Source of the DNA: Alphaproteobacteria bacterium
GTDB taxonomy: Bacteria > Pseudomonadota > Alphaproteobacteria > JAAEOK01
Assembly (NCBI GenBank): GCA_024244705.1
Contig: JAAEOK010000045.1
Span: forward strand, 62,001 to 126,000
Length of the DNA: 64,000 nt
Direction: 5' to 3'
Shown here: positions 31,836 to 49,723 of the stretch, one piece after another
How positions within the stretch are numbered: the first letter of the stretch is position 1
How the letters are laid out: every line of letters begins with the position of its first letter
Notes under the pieces: generated by a model
Database searches by the model: none
What the model was told of the DNA's origin: nothing
What the model saw: the letters and a program-made list of their open reading frames with translations, nothing else
Program-made: the position numbers and the translations under genes

Positions 31836-31993
31836 GAAATTTAACGGAGAGAATCGTTCCGAGTTGGCGTTGTAGTGACCTTGAATGCGATCCCTGATCA
31901 ACGGCCTTGGGGCATACGAAAGGTCGCACGCAAAATACCGGTAGGAACTTTTCTGCTGCGCGTCGGCGCCGAAAAGGAAACGGGAGGAGAAGT

Positions 31994-33148: not shown

Positions 33149-33242
33149 TCCGGACGGCCACGACACTTGGCGGTGTCGTCGTTTCGAAGTCGCTTTCGTA
33201 TCGAAGCGCGGCCACTGCCAGTCCGACATGGGGAGTATAGGA

Positions 33243-34427
33243 ATGCCGGATCCGAAATCGGATGAGTTCCGCGGCAACCGAAACCTGAAGCGGTTAAGCC
33301 GAATCTCGCAAAAGAAACAGGATGAAGAAATTCGGCGTTGCCTCGAGTTGGGGCTGGAAGCCGCTGATTCGATTAACGATCGCACGATCTCACTTTTCAG
33401 TCGCGGCCACCAGCCGGCTTTCGCTGGGATCAATACCTTCATGAAGTCGCCCTATTGTGAGGACGTAAAAAAGGTCGGGGAGTACGAGGCGGCATTTCTG
33501 GGCATACCGTTCGACACCGGCACGACCTATCGTTCCGGAACCCGCTTCGGTCCACAGGCGGTCCGTCGCATCTCGGCTGTCTATGACGGCTATTCGGTCG
33601 ATGGCGGCGTCGACCTGTTCGAGGAATTGGATATCTGCGATGCCGGCGACGTCTTCGTCATCCCAGGCAATATCGAAAAGACCTTCGATCAGGTTTCGAA
33701 AGCGGTCTCGCATGTCTATACCTCGGGTGCCTTTCCCATTCTCCTCGGCGGCGATCATTCATTGGGCTATCCCAACGTGCGCGGTATCGCTCCCCATATG
33801 GACGGCAATGTCGGAATCATTCATTTCGACCGCCATATCGACATGCAGGAGATCGATATGGATGAGCGCATGCACACCACGCCGTGGTTCTGGACCAGCA
33901 ACGCCCACGAAAGCGTGCAGCCGACGACCCACCACGATCACAGCCATATGCACGACGTCGGGCTCGACAATTGTCCACCGAAGAACCTGGTGCAGATCGG
34001 GATCGGCGGGTGGTACGGGTCGCGTCCCGGTTCGGAAGTTGCGCGCGAGCGAGGTACCAGCGTGATGACGATGACCGACGTCGAGGAACTCGGTACGAAG
34101 AAGGCCGCGGAACGCGCACTCGAGCTTGCCTGGGATGGTGCCAAGGCGGTCTACCTTTCGTTCGATATCGATTCCATCGATCCGGGCTTCGCTCCCGGGA
34201 CCGGGACCCCCGAACCGGGCGGGTTCACGCCACGAGAGGCATTGGAAATGGTTCGCTTGATCGCCCGTGAAGGGCTCTGCGGCATGGAAGTCGTCGAGGT
34301 CTCGCCGCCCTATGACGTCAACGACAATACCTCGCAGCTTGCCTGCCGGGTCATTCTCGATGCGCTGGGAACGATGGTTGTCGAAGGCAAGCTTGGCCAC
34401 CGAAGCGAAGTCATGGTACCGGAATAG
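33243..34427 (+). CDS. Ureohydrolase (agmatinase/guanidinobutyrase/guanidine hydrolase type)
   Basis: A 394-aa arginase-fold enzyme, longer than typical agmatinases (about 310). All six metal ligands are present: His172 in LGGDHS, Asp196/His198/Asp200 in HFDRHID, and Asp308/Asp310 in SFDIDSIDP. A 70-residue N-terminal extension and an insertion at about 222-245 rich in histidine (TTHHDHSHMHD) set it apart. The long form with a RHxD-type motif recalls the nickel-dependent guanidine hydrolase group, but 4-guanidinobutyrate or another guanidino compound is equally possible. The start is ATG 33243, with GGAG and AGGA upstream. An isochorismatase-fold hydrolase follows after 52 bp. Confidence 0.88.
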   Translation: MPDPKSDEFRGNRNLKRLSRISQKKQDEEIRRCLELGLEAADSINDRTISLFSRGHQPAFAGINTFMKSPYCEDVKKVGEYEAAFLGIPFDTGTTYRSGTRFGPQAVRRISAVYDGYSVDGGVDLFEELDICDAGDVFVIPGNIEKTFDQVSKAVSHVYTSGAFPILLGGDHSLGYPNVRGIAPHMDGNVGIIHFDRHIDMQEIDMDERMHTTPWFWTSNAHESVQPTTHHDHSHMHDVGLDNCPPKNLVQIGIGGWYGSRPGSEVARERGTSVMTMTDVEELGTKKAAERALELAWDGAKAVYLSFDIDSIDPGFAPGTGTPEPGGFTPREALEMVRLIAREGLCGMEVVEVSPPYDVNDNTSQLACRVILDALGTMVVEGKLGHRSEVMVPE

Positions 34428-34479
34428 GGACCGGCGCCGTTCCAATCGCATGACGGCGCGACGCAAGGGAACGCCCGAA

Positions 34480-35034
34480 ATGTTGATGAAGCCCGACCGG
34501 TCGTCGCTGCTTGTCATAGATTTACAGGAAAAATTGGTCCCGGCCATCGAAGACGGCGTGCGCGTGGTGGCTAACGCGACGACCCTGGTCAACGCGGCGG
34601 AACGACTTGGGATTCCGGTGACCGTCACGGAACATTGCCCCGATCGTATCGGCCATACGGTACCGGGATTGCGCGCGGCGGTGGCGGACGGGTCGGTCAT
34701 TAGCAAGGTTCACTTTTCGGGTCTTGCCGAACCAACGTTAGACGAGCGATTCCGCGCACTCGGTCGCGATCGGATCATTGTTGCCGGCACCGAGACCCAT
34801 GTCTGCGTCCTGCAGACGACAATGGATATCAAGGCCGCTGGCTATCGACCCTGTCTGGTCGTGGATGCGACCGGCACACGACACGGGATCGACAAGGAAA
34901 CCGCGATCGCCCGGTTGAGATCCGAGGGCGTGGACGTTGTCACCACCGAGATGGTTTTGTTCGAGTGGTGCGAGCGCGGCGACACCGCGCTATTCCAATC
35001 CGTGCTGCCGCTGATCAAGGCAACTAACTCCTAG
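34480..35034 (+). CDS. Isochorismatase-fold cysteine hydrolase
   Basis: A 184-aa protein of the isochorismatase/nicotinamidase superfamily. The Asp of the catalytic triad is in LLVIDLQEKLVP, the Lys in VISKVHFSG and the Cys in GTETHVCVLQTTMD. Family members hydrolyse amides such as nicotinamide, biuret or ureidoacrylate. It lacks the motif differences needed to name a substrate. ATG 34480 (or 34486) has AAGGGAAC upstream. Placement directly after the ureohydrolase suggests it acts on a product or on a related amide. Confidence 0.82.
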   Translation: MLMKPDRSSLLVIDLQEKLVPAIEDGVRVVANATTLVNAAERLGIPVTVTEHCPDRIGHTVPGLRAAVADGSVISKVHFSGLAEPTLDERFRALGRDRIIVAGTETHVCVLQTTMDIKAAGYRPCLVVDATGTRHGIDKETAIARLRSEGVDVVTTEMVLFEWCERGDTALFQSVLPLIKATNS

Positions 35035-35347
35035 GGAATCTCCCGTCGCCATCCGGTGGTTTGATTGGTGGCCGAGGCGTATGCGGTACCTACTTCAGGT
35101 GCCAACCGCGTTCCGGCAGCTGGCTCATTAATTAATGAACAGGTATAAAGACGAGCTTTAACCACCGAATTTGTAGTCATTAATTGAAATTCAGATTTAG
35201 CCCAGGAGGAATCTATCTGGTCTGGCGCTGGGCCATGAAGGCGTAGATTTTCTTTTTCCTAACAGTAAAATTATGTGAACATGGGTTGAAATGTGTTCGA
35301 CAAATTGTTACACTGCGCAAACAATCTCAGCGCCGGGAGATGAGGTA
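35035..35347. other. Intergenic region before the mgs-like operon; AT-rich, no gene
   Basis: This 313-bp gap is noticeably more AT-rich than its surroundings and I see no credible reading frame in it. It holds a 14-bp palindrome (35125-35138), a partial copy of it at about 35177-35187, and a GGAGATGAGG ribosome site for the next gene. It is most likely the promoter region of the mgs-like operon. Confidence 0.6.
35125..35138. promoter_or_regulatory. Palindrome TCATTAATTAATGA, candidate operator
   Basis: A perfect 14-bp palindrome; a related TCATTAATTGA lies at 35177-35187, 52 bp away (about five helical turns). This arrangement is suggestive of a dimeric regulator binding two sites upstream of mgsA. 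No regulator gene adjoins it. Confidence 0.4.
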
Positions 35348-36265
35348 ATGTGCGGGATCGTCGGGCTCTATCTAAAGAACCCCAATCTTTATGAAAAATT
35401 GGGCGAACACCTCCAGACCATGCTGGTGGGAATGACCGAACGCGGGCCAGACAGTGCGGGGTTTGCCGTTTATGGAGACCAGTTGTCGGCCGGATTGGTT
35501 AAATTGACGTTGTACGATCCGGCCCAGGCGACAAACTGGGACGGGCTCGCACACCGATTGCAGGATGATCTGAACGCCACCGCCGAGGTGACAGCTCGAG
35601 CCTCGCATGCGGTGCTGATCGCCGATACGACCCATGATGCCGTCGCGAATTGGCTCCGTACCTACGCTCCGGCTATTCGGGTGATGAGCCATGGGGACCG
35701 AATCGAAATATACAAAGACATGGGCCTGCCGGTTGACGTGGCCAATCGTTTCGGCCTTGCCGCCATGGTTGGAAGCCACGGCATCGGACATACCCGCATG
35801 GCGACGGAGAGTGCCGTTACGACCGAGCATTCGCACCCCTTCATCGCCGGTGCCGATTTGTGCCTCGTGCACAACGGATCGCTGAGCAACTACAACCGAC
35901 TCCGCGCCTGGCTATCGCGACGCGGCCGGATATTCGCGACCGACAACGACAGTGAGGTGGCGGCCCAATACTTCGCCTTTCGCCTCGGTCAGGGCTTGCC
36001 GCTGAGCGAGGCGCTTCGGGCGGGCCTACGCGATCTGGATGGGTTCTATACTTTCGCCGTGGGCACACGTGACGGATTCGCAGTTTTGCGCGATGGCATC
36101 GCGTGCAAGCCGGCGGTCCTGGCTGAGAACGATGATTGGGTGGCGATGGCTTCCGAATTCCGGAGCCTGTCGGCGCTACCGGGAATCGATCGGGCCCGAG
36201 TCTGGGAACCGGCACCGGCAGTCGTTTACAGCTGGGAGGCCGAGCGCATGGATCGTGCCGCGTGA
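35348..36265 (+). CDS. mgsA: Class II glutamine amidotransferase, N-methylglutamate synthase subunit A-like (MgsA/GlxB)
   Basis: A 305-aa Ntn-hydrolase domain. The start is fixed by chemistry: MCGIVG, where Cys2 becomes the N-terminal nucleophile. Further motifs are GMTERGPDSAGFAVYG, GIGHTRMATES, LVHNGSLSNYN and TDNDSEVAAQYF. It would release ammonia from glutamine, or use the same site to bind methylamine-derived nitrogen. With the next two genes it reproduces the three pieces of glutamate synthase large subunit, as in N-methylglutamate synthase (MgsABC) or the rhizobial GlxBCD proteins. Its stop overlaps the next start by 4 bp. Confidence 0.82.
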   Translation: MCGIVGLYLKNPNLYEKLGEHLQTMLVGMTERGPDSAGFAVYGDQLSAGLVKLTLYDPAQATNWDGLAHRLQDDLNATAEVTARASHAVLIADTTHDAVANWLRTYAPAIRVMSHGDRIEIYKDMGLPVDVANRFGLAAMVGSHGIGHTRMATESAVTTEHSHPFIAGADLCLVHNGSLSNYNRLRAWLSRRGRIFATDNDSEVAAQYFAFRLGQGLPLSEALRAGLRDLDGFYTFAVGTRDGFAVLRDGIACKPAVLAENDDWVAMASEFRSLSALPGIDRARVWEPAPAVVYSWEAERMDRAA

Positions 36266-36957
36266 CGGTCCAGGATTCGATCACGGTCGACCTCGCCGAG
36301 GTCAGCGTTCGGGACCTAAACCAGCGCCTCCATCACTTGACCGACGGAGGCGATGCGGATTGGCAGATCTTGAACCCGCGTGGACAGCACGCCATTGCTG
36401 TCGGTTTGATGGATCCGGTGCAAATCACGATCGACGGGCCGGTTGGTTATTATTGCGGCGGCATGAACCAGAATGCGCAAATCGTCGTCAACGGACATTC
36501 CGGTTGGGGCGTCGCCGAGAACATTATGTCCGGCGTTGTCCGAGTTCGTGGCAATGCCTCGGAGTCGGCGGCGGCCACCGGCCGAGCCGGCTTGGTTGTG
36601 ATCGAAGGGGACGCGAGCTCGCGCTGCGGGGTCTCGATGAAGGGGGTCGACATCGTGGTCGGCGGTTCGGTCGGCCACATGAGCGGCTTTCTGGCTCAAA
36701 CCGGCCGCATGGCCGTTTGCGGCGATGCCGGGGCCGACCTCGGTTCGTCGATTTATGAGGCCGTCATTTATGTCCGCGGCGACGTTGAAAGCCTGGGCGC
36801 CGACTGTATCGAAAAAGAAATGACCGACGCACACATTAGCGAGCTCGCGGAATTGTTGACCCGCGCCGAGGTCGCGGCGGATCCATCCGAATTCCGCCGC
36901 TACGGCTCGGCGCGAAACCTTTACCACTTCAAGGTCGATCATGCCGACGCCTACTAG
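36262..36957 (+). CDS. mgsB: GltB C-terminal-domain-like protein (MgsB/GlxC)
   Basis: A 231-aa right-handed beta-helix protein equivalent to the GXGXG domain of glutamate synthase. Repeated glycine-rich turns are seen (YCGGMNQNAQIVVNGHSGWG, VRVRGNASE, VIEGDASSRCG, IVVGGSVGHMSG, YVRGDVESLG). It is structural in glutamate synthase, holding the ammonia tunnel together. GTG 36262 overlaps the mgsA stop (GTGA), implying translational coupling. The next gene starts 24 bp later. Confidence 0.82.
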   Translation: MTVQDSITVDLAEVSVRDLNQRLHHLTDGGDADWQILNPRGQHAIAVGLMDPVQITIDGPVGYYCGGMNQNAQIVVNGHSGWGVAENIMSGVVRVRGNASESAAATGRAGLVVIEGDASSRCGVSMKGVDIVVGGSVGHMSGFLAQTGRMAVCGDAGADLGSSIYEAVIYVRGDVESLGADCIEKEMTDAHISELAELLTRAEVAADPSEFRRYGSARNLYHFKVDHADAY

Positions 36958-36981
36958 GCCGACACTGGCGGGAGAAAAGGC

Positions 36982-38304
36982 TTGACCGTTGATCGTCGTA
37001 CAGTCCGCGAATCGGCGACATTTCCGCCTTCCGTGATTGCCGAAATTCAACGCGCCGCAGACCAGGGTATTTACGATATCCGCGGATTCGGCGGCAAGCG
37101 GCGGCTGCCGAATTTCGACGACTTGGTATTTCTGGGTGCGTCGACATCGCGCTATCCGCTCGAGGGCTATCGTGAGCGCTGCGATACGTCGGTTACGTTG
37201 GGAGCGCGCCACGCGAAAAAGCCGATCGAACTCAAGATCCCGATCACCATCGCCGGTATGAGCTTCGGCGCCTTGGGTGCTCACGCCAAGGAAGCAATCG
37301 GCCGTGCAGCTACCGAAATGGGGACCAGCACGACGACCGGTGACGGCGGTATGACCGAAGAGGAGCGCAACAGCTCCAAGACCCTTGTCTATCAGGTCCT
37401 GCCCTCCCGCTACGGCATGAATCCGGACGATCTTCGTCGTTGCGACGCGATAGAGGTTGTCGTGGGGCAGGGGGCCAAACCCGGCGGCGGCGGCATGTTA
37501 TTGGGCCAGAAAATCACCGAGCGCGTGGCCGAGATGCGTACGTTGCCTGTCGGCATCGATCAGCGCAGTGCCTGCCGTCATCCCGATTGGACCGGCCCCG
37601 ACGATCTGGCGATCAAGATACGCGAATTGCGCGAAATCACGGATTGGGAAAAACCGATCTACGTCAAGGTGGGCGCGACGCGGACCCGATACGACGTTGC
37701 GCTCGCCGCCAAGGCCGGCGCCGACGTGATTGTCGTCGACGGAATGCAGGGCGGGACCGCCGCGACGCAGGACGTATTTATTGAACATGTCGGAATACCG
37801 ACCCTGCCGGCGGTGCGCCTGGCCGTCGAGAGTCTGAAGGAGCTCGATCTTCACCGTGAGGTCCAGCTCATCGTGTCGGGCGGGATCCGAACTGGTGCCG
37901 ATGTGGCCAAGGCTTTGGCGTTAGGGGCGGACGCGGTCGCGATTGGCTCGGCGGCGATGCTTGCGCTCGGGTGCAACAAGCCTGTCCATGAAGAGGATTA
38001 TCGCGCAATCGGCGCTGAGCCCGGTTATTGCCATCATTGTCATACCGGTCGCTGCCCGGTCGGCATCACCACCCAGGACCCTGACCTCGAACGACGCCTA
38101 CCACCGGAAGTCGGTGCGCGTCATTTGCGCAACTATCTCACCGTTATGGTCCTTGAGTTGCAAACCCTGGCCCGCGCATGCGGCAAGAGTCATATTCACA
38201 ATCTCGAGCCCGAGGATATGGTCGCGCTAACGATCGAGGCCGCCGCCATGGCCGGAGTGCCACTTGCCGGGACCGACTGGATTCCTGGCCGCACTGCTTT
38301 TTGA
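36982..38304 (+). CDS. mgsC: FMN-binding glutamate synthase-like protein (MgsC/GlxD)
   Basis: A 440-aa FMN TIM barrel corresponding to the synthase domain of glutamate synthase. FMN-phosphate and 2-oxoglutarate regions include AGMSFGALGAHAKEAIG, GQGAKPGGGG and VDGMQGGTAATQ; the 3Fe-4S cysteines are in CHHCHTGRCPVGITTQ. The start is TTG with GAGAAAAGG upstream. In methylamine users MgsABC makes N-methylglutamate from glutamate and methylamine. Genes for GMA synthetase (gmaS) and N-methylglutamate dehydrogenase (mgdABCD) are not in this window, so the pathway cannot be confirmed. Confidence 0.82.
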   Translation: MTVDRRTVRESATFPPSVIAEIQRAADQGIYDIRGFGGKRRLPNFDDLVFLGASTSRYPLEGYRERCDTSVTLGARHAKKPIELKIPITIAGMSFGALGAHAKEAIGRAATEMGTSTTTGDGGMTEEERNSSKTLVYQVLPSRYGMNPDDLRRCDAIEVVVGQGAKPGGGGMLLGQKITERVAEMRTLPVGIDQRSACRHPDWTGPDDLAIKIRELREITDWEKPIYVKVGATRTRYDVALAAKAGADVIVVDGMQGGTAATQDVFIEHVGIPTLPAVRLAVESLKELDLHREVQLIVSGGIRTGADVAKALALGADAVAIGSAAMLALGCNKPVHEEDYRAIGAEPGYCHHCHTGRCPVGITTQDPDLERRLPPEVGARHLRNYLTVMVLELQTLARACGKSHIHNLEPEDMVALTIEAAAMAGVPLAGTDWIPGRTAF

Positions 38305-38519
38305 CCTAACTGCCGAAAACGCGAAAAGCGCTCCCTGGGCCTATTCTGTCCCTTTCGGCCGCCTCGTAGCCTCGATGATTCGATCCATTGCCATCAAACG
38401 AGCCAAAAAACCGGCTGTACCGCCAAACCTCTAGTGTAGTATCCGACCGTCAACGCATCGGGGGTGGCGTCTCGTGCCGGGGCTTGTATTCTAGGGGCCA
38501 CGGGCGGAGGCAAAGGCAT

Positions 38520-40220
38520 ATGACCCAATCCACGGTTGCGCCCCATATCGAGTTGGACCTGCACGGGGGGCAACTCCTTGATAATCCCCTCTACAACAAG
38601 GGTACGGCGTTCTCCAAGGACGAGCGTAAAGAGTTCGACCTCGTCGGTCTCCTGCCACCCCATATCGACGACATGGAGACTCAGGCCGAGCGCGCCTACG
38701 CGGCCTACCAACGAAAAACGGAAGACCTCGAACGCCACATTTTCCTCCGCGGCCTCCAGGACACGAATGAAACGCTGTTTTACCGTTTGGTGCTCGATCA
38801 TCTGCCCGAGATGATGCCGATGATCTATACCCCGGTCGTCGGCGCCGCCTGTCAACAGTTCAGCGAGATATACCGGCGACCGCGTGGCTTGTTCATATCC
38901 TACCCGGAACGGGAAAAGATCGACGTCATGCTGGATAACGCGCCGGTTCCCAACGTCGAAGCCATCGTCGTGACCGACGGAGAAAGAATTCTCGGTCTCG
39001 GGGATCAGGGTGCCGGCGGCATGGGCATTCCGATCGGCAAATTGTCTCTCTATACGGCATGCGGCGGAATCACGCCGACCGGCACGTTGCCGATCCTCCT
39101 CGACGTGGGGACCAATAACGAGGAGCGATTGAACGACCCCATGTATGTCGGCTGGCGTCACGAGCGCGTGACGGGTGACGACTACTATGACTTTGTCGAC
39201 ATGTTTGTGCAGGCGGTGAAGCGGAAATTTCCACACGTTCTGCTCCAGTTCGAGGATTTCGCGCAGACCCACGCGGCCCCGTTGCTGGCCAAATATCGCG
39301 ACCAGTTGTGCACCTTCAACGATGACATTCAGGGGACGGCGGCGGTCACGGTGGGAACGCTGCTCGCCGCCTGTAAGGTCACCGGCGGCAAACTATCGGG
39401 TCAGACAGTAGCCATGTTTGGTGCCGGGTCCGCGGGCTGCGGCATCGCCGAACAGATGGTCGCCGCGATGGTCAGGGAAGGTTTATCGGAGAAAGACGCG
39501 CGGGCTCGTTTCTATATGATCGACCGGCCCGGCCTGCTCCACGACAAAGTCGAGGACTTGCTGCCTTTCCAAACGAAGCTATTGCAGCCGCACGACAAGG
39601 TTGCGAGTTGGGGAACCGGGAAGGGTGGGGAGATAACGTTTCTCGACGTGATCAAGAACGCGCATCCGACAATCCTCATAGGGGTCTCGGGCCAGCCCGG
39701 GAAATTCACCGAAGAAATAATCCGGGAAATGGCGAGCCACACCGATCGCCCCATCATCTTTCCGCTGTCCAATCCGACGTCCCGCATCGAGGGCGTTCCT
39801 GCGGACTTGATTTCGTGGACCGATGGACGGGCCCTGATCGCGACCGGGAGCCCGTTCGGTCCGGTGGATTTCAAAGGACACACCTACCCGGTCGCCCAAT
39901 GCAACAACAGCTATATCTTTCCAGCGATGGGGCTGGGAATCCTTGGGATCGGCGCGCGGCGAGTTTCCGACGGCATGTTCATGGCGGCGTCGGAAGAACT
40001 CAGCCGCCACGCGCCCGCGCTGAAGAACCCCGAGGGGTCACTTTTACCGTCGCTGGAGCAGGTGCGGGAGATTTCCGCTGACATTGCCTATGCCGTGGCG
40101 GCTCAGGCCCAGTCCGAGGGGCTTGCCGAGGACACGCCGAAATCGGAGATGAAAGAACGGGTTGACGCAAAACGGTGGCAACCGGTCTATTCCGCCCTCA
40201 AGCGGCGGTCCCGCAACTAG
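38520..40220 (+). CDS. maeA: NAD-type malic enzyme
   Basis: A 566-aa protein, the length of E. coli MaeA. Motifs are [44 protein letters not shown], the Asp/Glu metal site in [10 protein letters not shown] and [11 protein letters not shown], and the Rossmann [15 protein letters not shown]. It decarboxylates malate to pyruvate with NAD(P)+. The start is ATG 38520, with GGAGG upstream; the frame is open 132 nt further but without a ribosome site. Pyruvate made here could feed the pyruvate decarboxylases encoded 5 kb downstream. The next gene starts 42 bp later, so this may be the first gene of a sub-operon. Confidence 0.95.
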
Positions 40221-40262: not shown

Positions 40263-41510
40263 ATGAGCCTGGACATCATGACCGTGGCGCCGAAAGGCGA
40301 TAAGAAAAATTCCGATTTCTTCAACGAATATCGATTGAAGGTCTATGAACGGCGGAAGTCGAGCGGGCTGGAGGATCTTCTCGGCACGATGCGAGGCATC
40401 GTAATCCAGGTCGAGCATGGCGATGCGCTTCCTTATCTGGAAGAACTTTATACGATGTCGCCCTATCGGTTCGAGGCCGCCCGTCTGAACGAGACTCACA
40501 AGATCTATTTTCTTCGAACCACGCCCGACCAACCGCGTCTTATCGTGCTCGAGCCGCTCAATGCCAACTACGTCGACGATATCACGCGCTTCAATATGCT
40601 ATATCCGCGCGCCCGCCCGAAACCAAACGCGCGCTATGTCGGCGAGCTTTTTGCCACCAAGGACCTCGGCGAAACCCAAAAAATACTGGAATCGCACGAA
40701 ATTAGATTCCACACCGCGGCGGAGGAGACAAACTCGCTATTCGCCAACGAGCATTTCAGTTTCACCGTGCCGTCCGATTTCACCGGGAATCGGGTTGGCT
40801 ATACCTCGATCGATCTAAACGATGTCGACCAGATCGGCGCGGGCCAGGGTCTTGAATTGGCCAACGATGAGGTCAACCGCCTGAAGAAGGCCGACGACGA
40901 AATCCAAAAGACAGATATTCCAAAGGTGGTCCTGGGCCCCGATCACATGGCAACGCGCATCCTGTCCGGCGAACGCGAGGACGCGATCCTCGAGTTTCTA
41001 ACATTGTCGAATTACTATTTCTGGGGCGCTTACAACATCAGCGACATGAATTCGTCGACCAACGTCAACCGCAATCCGAATGTCGACGACGAAAAGCAAT
41101 CTCCCGCAAAGGTCTTTACCGCGAACAATACGCCGTCATTCGTCAATTCCTTCGAGGGATTGCCGATGCCGACCGAGAACTTCGTACGGAACTTTGGCCG
41201 CAGAATGCATCACATGGCCTATCAGGTTCTCGACGGAGACCATTCCAGCAAGCAAAAGAACATCGATTACGTCGTCGAGGAGCTCAAGAAACGGAAAGTT
41301 GCATTTCTCGCCCACGTTGTCGGCGAATGTGGCGATGAGCCGGACCTCAAGCAGATCTTTTCTAAGCACTCGGAATATTCGATTCTGATCACCGAATACA
41401 TTGAACGCTGCAACGGCTACCAAGGGTTCTTTACCAAACAGAACGTCGCGGCGTTGACCGAGGCAGCCGGGCTCGACGAGCGCTACGAGCACGGCCACGT
41501 TTTCGATTAA
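40263..41510 (+). CDS. HPPD-like VOC-fold iron dioxygenase, unassigned substrate
   Basis: A 415-aa protein that I place in the vicinal-oxygen-chelate group near 4-hydroxyphenylpyruvate dioxygenase. The C-terminal half matches in order: the first ligand His228 in GPDHMATRI, the second His317 in MHHMAYQV, the strand LKQIFSK, and Glu378 in LITEYIERCNGYQGFF, followed by QNVAALTEA. The 2-His/1-Glu iron triad is intact. The N-terminal half is diverged. The product label HPPD is not justified: no tyrosine-catabolic genes adjoin. Its neighbours are malic enzyme (42 bp before), an FMN glutamate-synthase-like gene (12 bp after) and pyruvate decarboxylases, so a 2-oxo acid substrate is plausible. Confidence 0.72.
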   Translation: MSLDIMTVAPKGDKKNSDFFNEYRLKVYERRKSSGLEDLLGTMRGIVIQVEHGDALPYLEELYTMSPYRFEAARLNETHKIYFLRTTPDQPRLIVLEPLNANYVDDITRFNMLYPRARPKPNARYVGELFATKDLGETQKILESHEIRFHTAAEETNSLFANEHFSFTVPSDFTGNRVGYTSIDLNDVDQIGAGQGLELANDEVNRLKKADDEIQKTDIPKVVLGPDHMATRILSGEREDAILEFLTLSNYYFWGAYNISDMNSSTNVNRNPNVDDEKQSPAKVFTANNTPSFVNSFEGLPMPTENFVRNFGRRMHHMAYQVLDGDHSSKQKNIDYVVEELKKRKVAFLAHVVGECGDEPDLKQIFSKHSEYSILITEYIERCNGYQGFFTKQNVAALTEAAGLDERYEHGHVFD

Positions 41511-41522
41511 TCGAGGTAGTAG

Positions 41523-43142
41523 ATGCTTGGTCAAGTTGATTGGTTGAGGCCGTTCCTGCGGTTCGTTCCATTCGCCCTCTGCGCCACGTTGTCGGTGGTA
41601 TTCTTTATCTTGTGGGTGTCGTCGAGCGGCGGCTATTTCTGGCTTTTCCTCGCTGCGATTGTCCTAACCGGGATGGGTGTGTGGGACTATTTCCAGGAAC
41701 GCCACAACCTGATGCGCAACTATCCGGTTGCCGGCCGCCTGCGGTGGGTCTTGGAAGGCATCCGGCCGCAAATAAGGCAATACTTCATCGAGAGCGATAT
41801 CGATGGCGCACCGTTCAACCGAAACGAACGAACGCTTGTTTACGAACGCGCCAAGAACATCCACGCGGAGGAGCCCTTCGGCACCGAGCGTGACGTCTAT
41901 GCGCCGGGGTACGAATGGTTTGCGCATTCGATCGCACCCGTTCCAGCGTCCGAGACTCACTTTCGGGTCGACATCGGCGGGCCCGGCTGTAGCCAGCCGT
42001 ACGCGATGGCGCTATTGAACGTCTCGGCAATGAGTTTCGGTGCGCTCAGCGCTAATGCCATAAGTGCCTTGAACCTGGGCGCCAAATTGGGCGGCTTCGC
42101 CCACGATACCGGGGAGGGAGGTCTGACCGACCACCATCTTGAACACGGCGGCGATTTGATATGGGAAATCGCCAGCGGCTATTTCGGCTGCCGGACCGCG
42201 GACGGGAAATTCGACCCGGACAAATTCAAAGTCAAGGTGAACGTCGATTCCGTCAAATGCGTCAGCATCAAATTGTCGCAGGGTGCGAAACCGGGCCTCG
42301 GCGGCGTCATGCCGGCGGCCAAGGTGACGCCGGAAATCGCCCGCATTCGGGGCGTCCCGGTCGGCGTCAAATGCATCTCGCCGCCCTATCACACGGCTTT
42401 TTCCACGCCGCGCGAGTTGATCGAGTTCGTCGCCAAGCTTCGCGAACTGGCTAACGGCCGGCCGACGGGTTTCAAGTTCTGCGTTGGCCATGGTTCCGAA
42501 TTTCTCGGCATTTGCAAGGCGATGATCGACCTCGACGTGTATCCCGATTTCGTTATCGTCGACGGCGGCGAAGGCGGCACGGGTGCGGCGCCCTTGGAAT
42601 TCGAGAACCATGTCGGGTCGCCTTTGACCGAGGGACTGATATTCGTCAACAATGCCCTCGTCGGATGCAATTTGCGTGACCACATCAAGATCGGCTGCAG
42701 CGGCAAGATCAATTCGGGTTTTGCCATCGCCCAGAAAATTGCCCAGGGGGCAGACTACTGCAACGCGGCCCGAGCCATGATGTTCGCGCTTGGATGCGTG
42801 CAGTCGCAAAAGTGCCAAACCAATCGCTGCCCGACCGGCGTAGCGACCCAGGATCCGCGGCGTAGCAGGGCGATCGTCGTCCCAACCAAGGCCGACCGAG
42901 TGCACCAGTTTCAAAGGCAGACCGTCGAAAGCTTTAACGAATTTATCGCTGCTATGGGTCTCGACGATCCCAGTCAGTTGAAACCGTCGATGCTGTTCCG
43001 TCGCGTCGATGAGAAATCGATTCTCCCCTACAGCGAAATATACAGCTATCTGGAGCCCGGAGAGTTGCTCGGAGGAACTTCGAATGCGCGATTTCGACAG
43101 TATTGGGAAGCAGCGGACCCCGATAGATTCCGAACCGGCTAA
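41523..43142 (+). CDS. Membrane-anchored FMN-binding glutamate synthase family protein
   Basis: A 539-aa protein with two N-terminal transmembrane helices (about residues 8-29 and 34-50) followed by an FMN barrel of the glutamate synthase type: NVSAMSFGALSANAISAL, HDTGEGGLTDHH, SQGAKPGLGGVMPAAKV, DGGEGGTGAAP, and FeS cysteines in KCQTNRCPTGVATQDP. It lacks an amidotransferase domain. Proteins of this orphan group are common but their reaction is not established. It starts 12 bp after the dioxygenase-like gene and is 116 bp before the first pyruvate decarboxylase. Confidence 0.88.
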   Translation: MLGQVDWLRPFLRFVPFALCATLSVVFFILWVSSSGGYFWLFLAAIVLTGMGVWDYFQERHNLMRNYPVAGRLRWVLEGIRPQIRQYFIESDIDGAPFNRNERTLVYERAKNIHAEEPFGTERDVYAPGYEWFAHSIAPVPASETHFRVDIGGPGCSQPYAMALLNVSAMSFGALSANAISALNLGAKLGGFAHDTGEGGLTDHHLEHGGDLIWEIASGYFGCRTADGKFDPDKFKVKVNVDSVKCVSIKLSQGAKPGLGGVMPAAKVTPEIARIRGVPVGVKCISPPYHTAFSTPRELIEFVAKLRELANGRPTGFKFCVGHGSEFLGICKAMIDLDVYPDFVIVDGGEGGTGAAPLEFENHVGSPLTEGLIFVNNALVGCNLRDHIKIGCSGKINSGFAIAQKIAQGADYCNAARAMMFALGCVQSQKCQTNRCPTGVATQDPRRSRAIVVPTKADRVHQFQRQTVESFNEFIAAMGLDDPSQLKPSMLFRRVDEKSILPYSEIYSYLEPGELLGGTSNARFRQYWEAADPDRFRTG

Positions 43143-43214: not shown

Positions 43215-44987
43215 ACGCCGTGGTCTAAATAGACAGCACGAAAACGGGAGCACAAACAATGAGTGATTCCAGCACAGTCGGCGGATATCTCGCCAGCCGG
43301 TTACAGGATATTGGTCTGCGGCAGTATTTCGCCGTGCCCGGCGACTACAACCTTGTCCTCTTGGATGAGCTGTTGAAAAACAAGAACCTGCAGATGATCA
43401 GCTGCTGCAACGAATTGAACGCGGGCTACGCGGCCGATGGTTATTCGCGTGCGACAGGCGGACCCGCCGCGGCTGTCGTGACTTACAGTGTCGGCGGGCT
43501 GAGCCTGCTGAACGCCGTTGCGGGTGCCTATGCGGAAGATATCCCCGTCATCGCCATTTCTGGCGGGCCAAATACCAACTCCGAAGCCGAGTACGAGTAC
43601 CTCCACCATACCTTGGGCGAGGTCGACTATAGTTATCAAAGGGATCTGTTTAGTCGCGTAACCGTCGAGTCGGTTGTCCTCCATCACCCGATGCTGGCGC
43701 CGGCCCAGATCGACAATGCGATCGAGATGGCTTTGTCGCGACGCAAGCCCGTCTACATCGAAGTTGCCAGCAATATTGCGGGGGCGTCGACGTCGGCACC
43801 GAGCAGCCGGGGGTTCGGCGAGCCCTCGGCGAGCGATCCACGGTCGCTGAAAACGGCGGTCGAGCATGCCGCCAAATTCCTCAACGCTGCGGAAAAACCG
43901 GTTCTCGTTGCCGGATCGAGGATCCGCGCGGGTCAGGCCGAGGCGTCATTTCGGGCCCTCGCGGACACCAGCGGATATGCCGTCGCCAGCATGCCCAACG
44001 CGAAGAGTTTCGTTTCGGAACACCAAGAAAACTACATGGGGATCTATTGGGGCCCGGTGAGCAGCACCGGATGTAGCGAGGTAGTAGAAGCTTCAGACGC
44101 CGCCCTTTTCGCCGGACCCATCTTTACCGACTACACGACGACCGGGCACCAACTCGGCGTCAATCGCAAGAACATGGTCGTCGTCGCACCGAACTCGGTT
44201 CTGCTGCAGGGTGCGCTCTACAGTCAGGTAAGAATGGATGATTTCTTGAGCAAGCTTGCGCCCAAGCTGAATAAGAGCGATGGCGCGATGGTCGCCTTCG
44301 ATCGCATTCGCGAGGATGTTCCGGAACTCGAACCCACCGGCGGTGAGGCGCCGCTCACCGTGCGGCAACTCTTCGCCCGCGTGCAGAAAATGCTCGACGG
44401 CGATTCGACACTACTCGTTGAGACCGGTGATTCCTGGTTCAACGGCATGGACATCAAGCTGCCGGCCGATGCGCGATTCGAAATTCAAATGCAATACGGG
44501 TCGATCGGCTGGTCCGTTGGGGCGACGCTGGGTTACGCGTTGGGCAAGTCCAAGGGCCGGCTCATTTCGTGTATTGGCGACGGTTCGTTCCAGATGACCG
44601 CGCAGGAACTGTCCACCATGATCCGATACGGCGTGAACCCGATTATCTTTCTGATCAACAATGGCGGCTACACAATCGAGGTGGAAATACACGACGGCCC
44701 CTACAATACGATCAAGAATTGGCGCTACGCGGATTTGGTTGATGTTTTCGGCGCTGGCGAAGGGAATGGATGGAGTGGCCGCGCGTCGACTGAAGGGGAA
44801 TTGGACGACGCGATCGCCAAGGCCCTCGGCCATGATGGACTCTGTCTCATCGAGGTCATGATCGATCGTGATGATTGCAATCGAAACCTGCTGCGCTGGG
44901 GCAATCGGGTTGCCCAGAACAATGGGCGACCGCCGCGCTGTGAATGAGTGAGGTTCGCCGATAGAGCCCGAAAGCATCCCGTGCCGC
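43215..44987 (+). repeat. Tandem duplication, copy 1 (pdc plus flanks)
   Basis: The first of two head-to-tail copies, offset by about 1774 bp. The similarity begins about 45 bp before the pdc ATG, includes its GGGAG ribosome site, and continues about 40 bp past the stop (shared GTGAGGTTCGCCGATAGAGC). Confidence 0.85.
43259..44947 (+). CDS. pdc: Pyruvate decarboxylase (thiamine diphosphate-dependent), copy 1
   Basis: A 562-aa ThDP enzyme. The key PDC residues of the Zymomonas enzyme have counterparts: Asp29 (VPGDYN), Glu52 (CCNELNAGYAADGYSR), His116-His117 (LHHTLG) and Glu474 (GYTIE in IHDGPYN context). The ThDP/Mg motif runs from GDGS at 440 to INN at 467. It would convert pyruvate to acetaldehyde and CO2; indolepyruvate or phenylpyruvate decarboxylation is an alternative because the families are close. 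PDC is rare in bacteria. No alcohol or aldehyde dehydrogenase gene is adjacent. A near-identical copy follows 85 bp downstream. Confidence 0.88.
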   Translation: MSDSSTVGGYLASRLQDIGLRQYFAVPGDYNLVLLDELLKNKNLQMISCCNELNAGYAADGYSRATGGPAAAVVTYSVGGLSLLNAVAGAYAEDIPVIAISGGPNTNSEAEYEYLHHTLGEVDYSYQRDLFSRVTVESVVLHHPMLAPAQIDNAIEMALSRRKPVYIEVASNIAGASTSAPSSRGFGEPSASDPRSLKTAVEHAAKFLNAAEKPVLVAGSRIRAGQAEASFRALADTSGYAVASMPNAKSFVSEHQENYMGIYWGPVSSTGCSEVVEASDAALFAGPIFTDYTTTGHQLGVNRKNMVVVAPNSVLLQGALYSQVRMDDFLSKLAPKLNKSDGAMVAFDRIREDVPELEPTGGEAPLTVRQLFARVQKMLDGDSTLLVETGDSWFNGMDIKLPADARFEIQMQYGSIGWSVGATLGYALGKSKGRLISCIGDGSFQMTAQELSTMIRYGVNPIIFLINNGGYTIEVEIHDGPYNTIKNWRYADLVDVFGAGEGNGWSGRASTEGELDDAIAKALGHDGLCLIEVMIDRDDCNRNLLRWGNRVAQNNGRPPRCE

Positions 44988-46757
44988 ACGCTGCGGTCCA
45001 GATAGCAGACACCAATGACGGGAGCACGGACAATGAGTGATTCCAGCACAGTCGGCGGATACCTCGCCAGCCGGTTGCAGGATATTGGTCTTGGACAGTA
45101 TTTCGCCGTACCCGGCGACTACAATCTTGTCCTCTTGGATGAGCTGTTGAAGAACAAGAACCTGCAGATGATAAGCTGCTGCAACGAATTGAACGCGGGC
45201 TATGCGGCGGACGGATATTCACGGGCAACGGGCGGACCCGCCGCGGCCGTTGTGACCTACAGTGTCGGCGGGCTAAGCCTGCTGAACGCGGTTGCCGGCG
45301 CCTATGCGGAAGACCTCCCCGTCATCGCCATTTCTGGCGGGCCAAATACCAACTCCGAAGCCGAATACGAGTACCTGCACCATACCTTGGGCGAGGTCGA
45401 CTACGGTTACCAAAGAGATATATTTAGCCGCGTAACGGTCGAGTCCGTTGTCCTCCATCACCCGATGCTGGCGCCGGACCAAATCGACAATGCGATCGAG
45501 ATGGCCTTGTCGCGCCGCAAGCCCGTCTACATCGAAATCGCCAGCAATATTGCGGGGGCGTCGACTTCGGCACCGAGCCGCCGGGGGTTCGGCGAGCCCT
45601 CGGCGAGTGATCCGCAGTCGCTGAAAGCGGCAGTCGAACATGCCGCCAAATTCCTCAACGCGGCGGAAAAACCGGTTCTCGTTGCCGGGTCGAGGATTCG
45701 CGCGGGCGGAGCCGAGGCGTCATTTCGTGCTCTCGCGGATACCAGCGGATATGCCGTAGCCAGCATGCCCAACGCAAAGGGCTTCGTTTCGGAACAGCAC
45801 GAAAACTATATCGGGATCTATTGGGGCCCGGTGAGCAGCACCGGGTGTAGCGAGGTGGTGGAAGCCTCGGATGCGGCCCTTTTCGCGGGACCCAACTTTA
45901 ACGACTACGCGACGGCCGGTCACCAGTTTGGCGTCAATCGCAAGAACATGATCGTCGCCGCACCGACCTCGGTTCTGCTGCAGGGTGCGCTCTACAGCCA
46001 GGTAAGAATGGATGAATTCCTGAGCAAACTTGCGCCCAAGCTGAATAGGAACGGCGGTGCGATGGTCACGTTCGATCGCATTCGCGAGGACGTTCCGGAC
46101 CTCGAACCGACCGGCGGTGAGGCTCCGCTCACCGTGCGGCAACTCTTCGCCCGAGTGCAGAGAATGCTCGACGGCGACTCGACACTGCTCGTCGAAATCG
46201 GCGATTCCTGGTTCAACGGCATGGACCTCAGGCTCCCGGACAACGCGCGGTTCGAAATTCAAATGCAGTACGGGTCGATCGGCTGGTCCGTTGGGGCCAC
46301 GCTGGGTTATGCGTTGGGCAAGCCGAAGGGCCGGCTCATTTCGTGCATCGGCGACGGTTCGTTCCAGATGACCGCGCAGGAACTGTCAACCATGATCCGG
46401 TACGACGCGAACCCGATTATATTTTTGATCAATAACGGGGGTTACACGATCGAAGCGGAGATTCACGACGGCCCCTACAATACGATCAGGAATTGGCGCT
46501 ACGCGGATTTGGTTGACGTCTTTGGCGCCGGCGAAGGGAATGGATGGAGCGGCCGCGTGTCGACGGAAGGGGAATTGGACGACGCGATCGCCAAGGCCCT
46601 CGGCCATGATGGGCTTTGCCTTATCGAGGTTATGATCGATCGCGGCGATTGCAATCGAAACCTGCTGCGTTGGGGCAATCGGGTTGCTCAGAACAATGGG
46701 CGCCCGCCACGCTGCGAATGAGTGAGGTTCGCCGATAGAGCCTGAAAGAATCCCACG
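44988..46757 (+). repeat. Tandem duplication, copy 2 (pdc plus flanks)
   Basis: The second copy of the 1.77-kb unit. It abuts copy 1 directly. Many silent and about 41 amino-acid differences show that the duplication is not recent. Confidence 0.85.
45033..46721 (+). CDS. pdc: Pyruvate decarboxylase (thiamine diphosphate-dependent), copy 2
   Basis: 562 aa, about 93% identical to copy 1 by hand alignment (some 41 substitutions), with every catalytic residue listed for copy 1 retained. About 16 of the substitutions cluster in the middle domain (roughly residues 258-345, e.g. the stretch after ALFAGP), whereas the ThDP-binding ends are nearly invariant. The start is taken at ATG 45033 to match copy 1; an in-frame ATG 18 nt upstream is less likely. 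Whether the two subunits form mixed tetramers or differ in kinetics is unknown. An M24-fold gene follows after 206 bp. Confidence 0.88.
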   Translation: MSDSSTVGGYLASRLQDIGLGQYFAVPGDYNLVLLDELLKNKNLQMISCCNELNAGYAADGYSRATGGPAAAVVTYSVGGLSLLNAVAGAYAEDLPVIAISGGPNTNSEAEYEYLHHTLGEVDYGYQRDIFSRVTVESVVLHHPMLAPDQIDNAIEMALSRRKPVYIEIASNIAGASTSAPSRRGFGEPSASDPQSLKAAVEHAAKFLNAAEKPVLVAGSRIRAGGAEASFRALADTSGYAVASMPNAKGFVSEQHENYIGIYWGPVSSTGCSEVVEASDAALFAGPNFNDYATAGHQFGVNRKNMIVAAPTSVLLQGALYSQVRMDEFLSKLAPKLNRNGGAMVTFDRIREDVPDLEPTGGEAPLTVRQLFARVQRMLDGDSTLLVEIGDSWFNGMDLRLPDNARFEIQMQYGSIGWSVGATLGYALGKPKGRLISCIGDGSFQMTAQELSTMIRYDANPIIFLINNGGYTIEAEIHDGPYNTIRNWRYADLVDVFGAGEGNGWSGRVSTEGELDDAIAKALGHDGLCLIEVMIDRGDCNRNLLRWGNRVAQNNGRPPRCE

Positions 46758-46927
46758 GTCGCGGTGTCGTTGCGCTTGAATCAAATTTCTGGGTAGGCGA
46801 CTGCCTCGAACCTGCAGCGGCCATTGACCGCGCACGAATATGGGTTTTTGATCTTGCCCGGGAAACTGGCCGCCGCGCTTGCGGGGCTCGGTCACAAGTT
46901 CCCAGAATGTCGGGGGGAGCTAATCGA

Positions 46928-48082
46928 ATGGCGGACATTTACCAACAACGTGTGGCCGATCTGCAGGAACGGATGAGGGCGGCGGGCCACGATTCCTTCG
47001 TCGTCTATGACGCCGACACGATCTATTACCTGTCGGGATACTGGGGTTATCTGGGAATGGAATTCGATCGCGCCACTTTGATCGTCGTGCCGGCTACCGG
47101 AAATCCGGTCTTGATCACGCCGGCCATGGAAGCGGAAATGGCCCGCAACATGACTTCGATCGCAGACGTGCGGGAATGGATGGATGGTGTGGATGGCGAG
47201 TGGATGCGCCACCTTGCCGATATTCTCGAGGCCCGGCCGACGCGCTCGGTGGCGGTTGAGCGCTATAAGACACATTCTCGCGTCATGGAAACCCTAGGCA
47301 AGCTCGTATCCGAAGCGGCGTTGGTCGACGCGGCATCTATCATCGGCGAGATGCGAATCGTCAAGAGCGCGGAAGATATCGCGGTCATGCGGCAAGCTGG
47401 GCAAGTCGCGGCGGCAATGGCTCGCGCCGGACAGGAGGCCATCGGCGAAGGGGTCCCGGAATATGAGATGGCATTGGCTGTCATCAATGCGGGATCGCGC
47501 AAAGGCGCTGAGTTGCTGGAAGCCGTGGGCGAAGACCACCTGGCTTCGCCGATGATCTACAACCTTCAGATCATGCAATCCGGCCAACATACTTGCATGG
47601 TTCACCGCCGATCGACAGTTAAGCGCCTGGTCCGCGGTGACCCGGTCTATTTTTGCTTTTGTGGTATCGCCAATTTCAAGCAATTCAAGCTCGGCTTCGA
47701 CCGCTCGTTTTTCGTGAGTGAGGTTACCGATGAGCAGGCGAGAATCTACGAACTGGCATTGGCTGCCCAGCAGACCGCACTGGCCCAAATTCGCCCGGGA
47801 GCGATTGCGGAAGAGGTCCATGCCGCCGCCGAGGAAGTCTATCGATCCGCTGGATTCAGCGCGGGCTACCGGACGGGGCGCGGAGTTGGGTATTCCTTTC
47901 TTGAGAATCCCCAACTGAAGGCCGGCGACCGGACGATCCTGATGCCGGGCATGACCATGGCCGTCGACGGCGGCATAAATGTACCGGGGGACTTCGGCGC
48001 CCGTATTGGCGATTCAATCGTGGTGACGGAGAGCGGTTTCGATTATCTCACCGACTATCCTCGCGACTTAACCGTCGCCTAA
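46928..48082 (+). CDS. M24-fold hydrolase lacking metal ligands (creatinase/DoeA-like)
   Basis: A 384-aa pita-bread protein, usually annotated Xaa-Pro dipeptidase. The N-terminal domain has VVYDADTIYYLSGYWGYLGMEF. The position of the first metal Asp pair reads VYFCFCGIANFKQFKLGFDRSFFV, without the usual aspartates, so it belongs to the metal-independent creatinase/ectoine hydrolase-like branch and may open a C-N bond in a cyclic or amidino compound. ATG 46928 has GGGGGGAG about 9 nt upstream. A GatC/AtzG-like gene and an amidase follow at 19 and 2 bp. Confidence 0.82.
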   Translation: MADIYQQRVADLQERMRAAGHDSFVVYDADTIYYLSGYWGYLGMEFDRATLIVVPATGNPVLITPAMEAEMARNMTSIADVREWMDGVDGEWMRHLADILEARPTRSVAVERYKTHSRVMETLGKLVSEAALVDAASIIGEMRIVKSAEDIAVMRQAGQVAAAMARAGQEAIGEGVPEYEMALAVINAGSRKGAELLEAVGEDHLASPMIYNLQIMQSGQHTCMVHRRSTVKRLVRGDPVYFCFCGIANFKQFKLGFDRSFFVSEVTDEQARIYELALAAQQTALAQIRPGAIAEEVHAAAEEVYRSAGFSAGYRTGRGVGYSFLENPQLKAGDRTILMPGMTMAVDGGINVPGDFGARIGDSIVVTESGFDYLTDYPRDLTVA

Positions 48083-48101
48083 AGAATGAGGTGAGGCGGT
48101 C

Positions 48102-48311
48102 ATGAAGCGAATCGAAAGACGAACGCTGAAGCGCGTCTCGGAGCAGCTCGCGGGCCGCGAATGGGATGGCGAGGCGCTCGATGAGTTGGTCGCACCGGCC
48201 CACGGCGTCATCATCGGATTTCAGGAACTCCTGGATGAATTGGCCGATCTGAGCCGGGTAGATCTCGGCGACACGCGTCCGGCCGGCTTGCCTCACTCGC
48301 CGAAGAGCTAG
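48102..48311 (+). CDS. Small GatC/AtzG-like amidase partner
   Basis: A 69-aa protein: a basic N-terminus, helix-forming EALDELVAPAHGVIIGFQELLDELADL, then DLGDTRPAGLP. The last motif and the position 2 bp before an amidase recall AtzG, the GatC-like subunit that stabilises the AtzE amidase. I propose the same role here; similarity is short and based on pattern only. The ATG is preceded by GAGGTGAGGCGG. Confidence 0.65.
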   Translation: MKRIERRTLKRVSEQLAGREWDGEALDELVAPAHGVIIGFQELLDELADLSRVDLGDTRPAGLPHSPKS

Positions 48312-48313
48312 TC

Positions 48314-49723
48314 ATGCCCGGCAGCGAATTGGCATTCCTGCCGGTGTCCGATATCGCCCGGTTGATGGCCAATGGTGCGGTTTCGCCGGTCTCATTGACA
48401 CAGTATTTCCTCGATCGCATCGATAAATACGATGCCGGTCTGCACGCGTTCATCACGGTTATGGGCCGGCCGGCCCTGGCCGCGGCCGCCCGGGCCGAGG
48501 ACGCGGCATCATCCGGTCCGCTATGGGGTATTCCTTTCGCCTGCAAAGACATGATTCAGGCGCGGGGGGCGCCAACGACGGCGGGTTCCGCGGTGCTCGC
48601 CGATTGGATGCCCGAAGCGGACGCGACCGTGGTTGAGCGGATGACGGCGGCCGGCGCGATATTGATCGGCAAGAATAACCTCCATGAGTTTGCCTATGGA
48701 GCGATGGGCGAGAACGCGATTTACGGGACCCCGCCAAACCCATTTGATCGCGAACGCTTGGCCGGAGGCTCGAGCAGCGGTTCGGCGGCGGCCGTTGCTG
48801 CCGGTCTGGTTCCCGCCGCGATCGGTACCGATACCGGCGGCTCGGTCCGCGTGCCGGCCGCGCTCTGTGGCCTCGTCGGACTAAAGCCGACGCTGGGGCG
48901 GATCAGCACTTACGGAATCATTCCTTTCGCCTGGACGCTGGACCATGTCGGCTTGCTGACCCGCACCATCGAAGACAGCGCATTGTTGCTCGAAATTCTA
49001 TCCGGATTCGACCCACGGGATTCCGGTAGCGTAGATGTGGCGAATGAGGATTCGATTGGCACCCCGCGGGCGGATGTCGCGGGACTGAAGGTTGGCGTGC
49101 CACGGCGTTTTTTTTACGAACGGGCAGATCCCGAGATCCTGGACGCAACGGATCGCGCGCTGGCGACACTGGAGAAAGCCGGCGCCACTTGCATCGAAAT
49201 CGAACTGCCTGCGATGGACCATGCCAGGACCGTGTCGTTGACGATCCAGCTATCCGAGGCGCTTTCCTACCATAGCCGTTACCTTGAAACCGGCCGCGAC
49301 GCCTATGGCGAAGATCTCCTTGCCGGGCTTGCGGCTGGGCAGTTCATTCTGGCCGAGCACTACGTTCGTGCCAGGCGGTTCGTGCAGCAATTTCGGGAGT
49401 CGACCAACCTGGTTTTCGAAACGGCGGATATCATCGTAACGCCAACGACACCATTTGTCGCACCAATGATCGGAACAACGGAAGTCGAGACGGACGGCCT
49501 GACCGAGGCGGTCGGGAACGGGCTGACGCGATACACGACGTTCTTCAATATGTCGGGACATCCGGCCGTGAGCATGCCCGCGGGCCTTCACTCGACCGGC
49601 TTGCCGATGGGTGTGCAAATCGTTGGACGCCATTTCGAAGAGAAAACCATACTTGGCGCCGGGGCGGTGATCGAACGAGAACCAGATTTCGCCATTCCGA
49701 TGCCTAAGGCGTTCCTGGATTAA
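48314..49723 (+). CDS. Amidase signature family hydrolase (AtzE/GatA-like)
   Basis: A 469-aa amidase. The Ser-cisSer-Lys triad is visible: Lys in IPFACKDMI (about residue 78), and the two serines in LAGGSSSGSAAAVAAG and DTGGSVRVPAALCG. It would hydrolyse an amide to an acid and ammonia. A GatC-like gene immediately precedes it, as atzG precedes atzE, so a heteromeric enzyme acting on a ureido or carbamoyl acid is likely. The M24-fold gene upstream could produce its substrate. The GatB partner of true tRNA amidotransferases is absent, arguing against a translation role. Confidence 0.9.
   Translation: MPGSELAFLPVSDIARLMANGAVSPVSLTQYFLDRIDKYDAGLHAFITVMGRPALAAAARAEDAASSGPLWGIPFACKDMIQARGAPTTAGSAVLADWMPEADATVVERMTAAGAILIGKNNLHEFAYGAMGENAIYGTPPNPFDRERLAGGSSSGSAAAVAAGLVPAAIGTDTGGSVRVPAALCGLVGLKPTLGRISTYGIIPFAWTLDHVGLLTRTIEDSALLLEILSGFDPRDSGSVDVANEDSIGTPRADVAGLKVGVPRRFFYERADPEILDATDRALATLEKAGATCIEIELPAMDHARTVSLTIQLSEALSYHSRYLETGRDAYGEDLLAGLAAGQFILAEHYVRARRFVQQFRESTNLVFETADIIVTPTTPFVAPMIGTTEVETDGLTEAVGNGLTRYTTFFNMSGHPAVSMPAGLHSTGLPMGVQIVGRHFEEKTILGAGAVIEREPDFAIPMPKAFLD

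Follow-up and report, generated by a model that had tools for sequence, protein, structure and literature searches.

What reaction would be performed by an HPPD-like protein whose gene lies between those of a malic enzyme and an FMN protein? This question was raised by a gene at positions 40263..41510 (+ strand; 415 aa) of the window, i.e. the whole stretch of 64,000 nucleotides of the alphaproteobacterial contig JAAEOK010000045.1 that was analyzed in this study. As described below, its product is very probably an HPPD-type VOC metalloenzyme, and the finding exceeds the original prediction made for this locus, as it concerns a whole uncharacterized family with a conserved metabolic setting and a variant of known chemistry. 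Neither this VOC family nor its gene set was found described in our literature searches.

Genetic organization of the locus

The VOC gene starts with ATG, and the sequence GGAGG is located just 5' of it. It is separated by 42 bp from the stop (position 40220) of a gene encoding an NAD-type, oxaloacetate-decarboxylating malic enzyme (38388..40220, +; NF010052, 835 bits, cut-off 326), the true start of which probably lies inside the listed open reading frame, and by 12 bp from the start of a gene encoding an FMN protein with a glutamate-synthase domain (41523..43142, +). The coordinates, the length and both spacings given in the original prediction were exact. The FMN protein matches glutamate synthase (its orthologues match PF01645) and possesses a hydrophobic N-terminus and a cluster of Cys residues. 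The next two genes (43259..44947 and 45015..46721, both +) are tandem duplicates, sharing 93% identity, and encode pyruvate decarboxylase (PDC). The first of the two scored 515–542 bits against the bacterial PDCs of the PDB (and 583 bits against an ancestral construct) versus 262 bits against indolepyruvate decarboxylase, and therefore this TPP enzyme can be regarded as a genuine PDC. It is noteworthy that PDC is uncommon in bacteria and that the pair appears to result from a recent duplication.

Several other genes surround this group. Positions 35291-38304 carry three genes, for a class II glutamine amidotransferase, a GXGXG/FwdC-like protein and a glutamate-synthase FMN domain, a trio resembling a split glutamate synthase or an N-methylglutamate-synthase-type complex. 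Just upstream of it (31907-35034) are genes encoding an SsuA-like substrate-binding protein, an agmatinase/arginase-family protein and an isochorismatase-family hydrolase, while 3' of the PDC pair (46907-49723) there are genes for an Xaa-Pro peptidase-like (ectoine hydrolase-like) protein and an amidase, which are not conserved at other VOC loci. Four genes of the window, namely those for the glutamine amidotransferase, the agmatinase-like protein, the Xaa-Pro peptidase and the amidase, were rejected as partners of the VOC gene, as they are not conserved neighbours.

Predicted fold and metal site

The window protein gave zero matches in Pfam, even at an E-value of 10, and nothing meaningful in NCBIfam (TIGR01263 was unmatched) or in a sequence search of the PDB, where the matches to 5M8L and others (E about 1) were dismissed as chance. 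PF07063 (HglS/DUF1338) was unmatched in both the window protein and the host genome. The original prediction had anticipated VOC/HPPD hits from a profile search; Pfam gave none, and matches were obtained only by fold and profile-profile comparisons.

An AlphaFold2 model built from 44 aligned family members (pLDDT 81, pTM 0.87) has a predicted fold of paired beta-alpha-beta-beta-beta modules that would surround a metal site. Its best PDB matches found with Foldseek were hydroxymandelate synthase (HMS) and HPPD (E 1e-9 to 1e-10), and VIA-align gave a Z of 22.2 with human HPPD and, with two HMS structures, Z values of 21.6 and 21.3, all well above the level given in the tool's notes for common arrangements. 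Over the HPPD and HMS structures as a whole, VIA Z values were about 18–22 (rmsd 3.5–4.3, over 280–310 residues), and the two-domain VOC arrangement was matched whole. Two highly conserved but poorly modelled loops (255–266 and 299–310) are likely to be placed near the active site.

The putative metal ligands were located by a local profile-profile alignment of the family against 12 alphaproteobacterial HPPDs (E 0.0054, with a low probability, from two shallow profiles), in which H228, H317 and E378 fall, in order, on the HPPD iron triad. The aligned segments (family on HPPD) are DHMATR/DHLTHN, RRMHHMAYQV/EGIQHIALGT, LKQIFSKHS..ILITEYIERC/LLQIFTE..IFFEIIQR and, at the C-terminal end, GFFTKQNVAALTEAAGLDE over GFGEGNFKALFEAMELDQ, with LKQIF and GFF..N..AL.EA..DE as shared C-terminal motifs. 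These three residues, as well as R232, are invariant in 44/44 aligned members, and all three putative ligands are placed by the model on predicted strands (223–232, 316–322 and 376–383). The original prediction of a VOC/HPPD fold is thus upheld by the structural comparison with HPPD and HMS (Z 20–22 in VIA, spanning 285–308 residues), its HPPD landmarks and triad agree with the alignment, and the divergent N-terminal half that it noted is reflected in the distribution of invariant columns, 88 of 112 of which fall in the C-terminal half.

The position four residues after the first ligand (H+4) is occupied by Arg in 44/44 family members and by Asn in 12/12 HPPDs. The stretch H228..R232 matches, at the level of sequence alone, the H-x-A-x-R motif of HglS (a fetched HglS homologue reads RHGAIRLG), whose Arg74 is situated four residues past a metal-binding His. 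Such an Arg is not rare at this position of VOC strands, glyoxalase I being another example, and Arg232 therefore suggests a carboxylate but no specific substrate. In HglS, Arg74 forms a salt bridge with the distal carboxylate of 2-oxoadipate, and the R74A variant is inactive (PMC7286885).

Size and spread of the family

When one genome of each species was scanned, 110 relatives were obtained, and the 80 loci kept were nearly all full length and 57–69% identical; the window open reading frame is therefore a real gene of a strongly conserved, unnamed family and not a chance frame. Members were identified in Planctomycetota (Pirellulales, Mariniblastus, Bythopirellula, Aeoliella and Phycisphaerae), Alphaproteobacteria (Ruegeria, Sneathiella and Kiloniellaceae), Gammaproteobacteria (Haliea, Halioglobus, Legionella and Coxiellaceae) and Myxococcota, as well as in two Synechococcus bins. 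The occurrences in Synechococcus and in a Methyloprofundus MAG may be binning errors. The distribution of the family is patchy: in the host's class, 3 matches were reported in 385 genomes, one of them spurious. The match in another genome of that class (L083; 51% over 39 residues) was discarded, as it looks like chance and its frame is not coding-like. Plasmids, phages and viral contigs were also searched and yielded no relatives. The phyla are intermixed on the family tree, which suggests horizontal transfer of the VOC gene.

Conserved gene neighbourhood

The analysis of neighbouring genes revealed that a malic enzyme adjoins the VOC gene in 25 loci, which belong to several phyla and show either gene order, while the FMN glutamate-synthase-domain protein adjoins it in 18 loci and PDC-type TPP enzymes in 10; an NDH-2-like flavoprotein is a further recurrent neighbour. 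In several Pirellulales, the malic enzyme gene is located 3' of the VOC gene, whereas a 5' position is seen in the window as well as in Sneathiella, Mariniblastus, Kiloniellaceae and two loci each of Ruegeria and Legionella; the two genes have therefore probably come together on more than one occasion. Along the family tree, the presence of a malic enzyme neighbour changes about 9 times, with at least 7 of the changes forced by well-supported branches. In many loci of Legionella, Coxiellaceae, Haliea and Ruegeria, the malic enzyme and the other recurrent neighbours are absent nearby.

At five loci (L002 and its kin), the gene flanked by those for the NDH-2-like protein and the malic enzyme encodes a PoxB-like enzyme. 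Its best match is ubiquinone-dependent pyruvate dehydrogenase, with a score of 598 bits that does not reach the curated cut-off of 792, and in some planctomycetes it takes the place of PDC. The VOC family and PDC also co-occur at the level of genomes: in a planctomycete-centred sample of 297 genomes, the family was found in 20, PDC in 21 and both in 18 (Fisher p 8e-24, uncorrected for kinship), in many cases without linkage of the two loci. Among the 44 genomes searched from all lineages, PDC was present in only 17. In one group of genomes, which we take to be Rhodopirellula-like, the VOC and NDH-2-like genes share one locus and the malic enzyme and PDC genes are hundreds of kb away.

Other genes were seen beside the VOC gene at single loci. 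A SidE phosphodiesterase-domain protein is encoded directly 3' of it in Legionella impletisoli (L063:11477-13384) and a phytochelatin synthase in Bythopirellula (L008:11245-11964). Two planctomycete VOC operons (L016:3009-8315 and L014:12338-18183) adjoin genes for Rieske, cytochrome b, COX1/COX3 and CtaG proteins, a possible respiratory link.

Proposed reaction and its alternatives

The fold, the aligned triad and the chemistry of related enzymes point to the use of Fe(II), O2 and a 2-oxo acid, and the invariant Arg232 suggests that this acid is dicarboxylic. We infer an HPPD/HMS-type Fe(II) oxygenase that would convert 2-oxoglutarate and O2 into malate and CO2, a statement to which, taken as a whole, we assign a probability of about 0.35. 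According to this proposal, H228, H317 and E378 would hold a mononuclear Fe(II), to which the 2-oxo acid would bind via two vicinal oxygens, and O2 would drive first its decarboxylation and then its hydroxylation. A small 2-oxo dicarboxylate would serve as the substrate, its far carboxylate being held by Arg232 in the way that Arg74 does this in HglS. Among such compounds, 2-oxoglutarate is the most economical candidate, as a reaction of the HMS/HglS type would convert it into malate and CO2; decarboxylation-hydroxylation is the reaction performed by HMS and HglS (PMC7286885). The malate would then pass to the neighbouring malic enzyme, giving pyruvate, CO2 and NADH, of which pyruvate would be used by PDC (to acetaldehyde) or by the PoxB-like enzyme (to acetate), and NADH by the NDH-2-like flavoprotein. 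As the companion genes would turn malate into pyruvate and acetaldehyde, the VOC enzyme may constitute an oxygen-using step of central metabolism and not of tyrosine breakdown. The proposal would fit the conserved neighbourhood, the co-occurrence with PDC and the resemblance of the FMN protein to glutamate synthase, also a 2-oxoglutarate handler; what speaks against it is that HglS does not use 2-oxoglutarate (PMC7286885), as do the many loci lacking a malic enzyme nearby, the limited occurrence of PDC (17/44 genomes) and the poor modelling of the two conserved loops. Of the two kinds of new substrate suggested by the original prediction, a 2-oxo acid is the likeliest, whereas an amide is unsupported, the amidase and peptidase not being conserved neighbours.

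Several alternatives have to be weighed against this proposal. The same fold and iron chemistry might act on another 2-oxo dicarboxylate, either 2-oxoadipate (yielding 2-hydroxyglutarate, as with HglS) or oxaloacetate. This would suit the HPPD/HMS fold, the HglS-like Arg at H+4 and a host without HglS, but no lysine-catabolism genes were recognized among the recurrent neighbours, which handle malate and pyruvate, and we consider it rather unlikely. An aromatic or branched-chain 2-oxo acid is quite improbable as the substrate of an HPPD-type oxygenase here. The known substrates of HPPD and HMS are aromatic, and Q364, F366 and N394 align with Gln379, Phe381 and Asn423 of AtHPPD (PMC6750108). However, the neighbouring decarboxylase belongs to the pyruvate type, and some genomes carry the family together with a true HPPD. 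In addition, of two residues in the Ser-Asn-Gln-Gln active-site network that are important for HPPD catalysis (PMC6750108), Gln307 is replaced in the profile alignment by His (H316, before the second ligand) and Gln293 is unmatched by Gln, although this alignment is uncertain in the part from the first ligand to the second.

Pyruvate itself, shared with PDC after its formation by the malic enzyme and oxidized to glycolate and CO2, would agree with the convergence of malic enzyme and PDC/PoxB-like enzyme on this compound; it would nevertheless offer no second carboxylate to the invariant Arg232 and would have to be competed for with the adjacent PDC, which makes this reading very improbable. 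Finally, the VOC superfamily is mechanistically diverse, and a glutamate-synthase-like FMN protein recurs as a neighbour, so a metal-dependent non-oxygenase (isomerase, lyase or hydrolase), or a two-substrate oxygenase with 2-oxoglutarate only as its co-substrate, has to be considered. We regard this as unlikely, as HPPD and HMS oxygenases are the top fold matches and agree with the model over its entire two-domain arrangement.

Two further roles for the VOC gene were dropped. An ordinary 2-oxoglutarate dehydrogenase is present in 32/40 carriers, the host included, so the VOC gene does not replace a missing one and the proposed shortcut fills no gap in most carriers. Similarly, 16/40 carriers have a true HPPD beside the VOC family gene, which is therefore no substitute for HPPD. 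In the host genome, neither HglS nor a TIGR01263 (HPPD) match at E 0.001 was found; this, together with the genomes carrying both genes, agrees with the placement of the protein outside tyrosine catabolism made from the window alone.

Returning to the conversion of 2-oxoglutarate into malate, a broader and still more doubtful reading is that the VOC proteins are single-substrate 2-oxo-acid oxygenases of a new family, which would perform this conversion directly with O2 as part of a portable gene set (the VOC enzyme, malic enzyme, the FMN and NDH-2-like proteins, and either PDC or the PoxB-like enzyme) bypassing half of the TCA cycle and ending in acetaldehyde or acetate. The enzymes that use a single 2-oxo acid as substrate and co-substrate at once comprise HPPD, HMS and, as the third to be identified, HglS (PMC7286885). 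If the proposal is true, a fourth, strongly conserved family, encoded beside malic enzyme and PDC, would bring single-2-oxo-acid chemistry into central carbon metabolism and provide a way of bypassing 2-oxoglutarate dehydrogenase that depends on oxygen. The proposal also supplies a functional hypothesis for a protein family absent from Pfam.

Comparison with known systems

The family shares with HPPD (human 3ISQ and P. fluorescens 1CJX) the two-domain VOC fold, the HHE positions, an LLQIF-like strand and the C-terminal helix motif. It differs in its low identity (about 13–16%), in the lack of a Pfam/TIGR01263 match, in its operon and in the replacement of the Asn at H+4 by the invariant Arg; in the profile alignment, the Gln before the second His also appears as His. 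HMS (2R5V and 3ZGJ) is similar in fold (Z 21–22) and in the proposed outcome, decarboxylation-alpha-hydroxylation, but shares only 17–19% identity in the structural alignment, and the antibiotic-biosynthesis setting of HMS is missing here. HglS/DUF1338 (PF07063) is another VOC enzyme with an HHE triad, and its first ligand lies in an H-x-A-x-R stretch that the family matches by sequence; in HglS, this Arg holds the distal carboxylate of a 2-oxo dicarboxylate. The window protein and the host genome have no PF07063 match, and HglS, which functions in lysine catabolism, is strict in its use of 2-oxoadipate. The human HPDL protein, compared here by its described role, is another HPPD-like paralogue outside tyrosine catabolism, differing in its aromatic chemistry linked to coenzyme Q.
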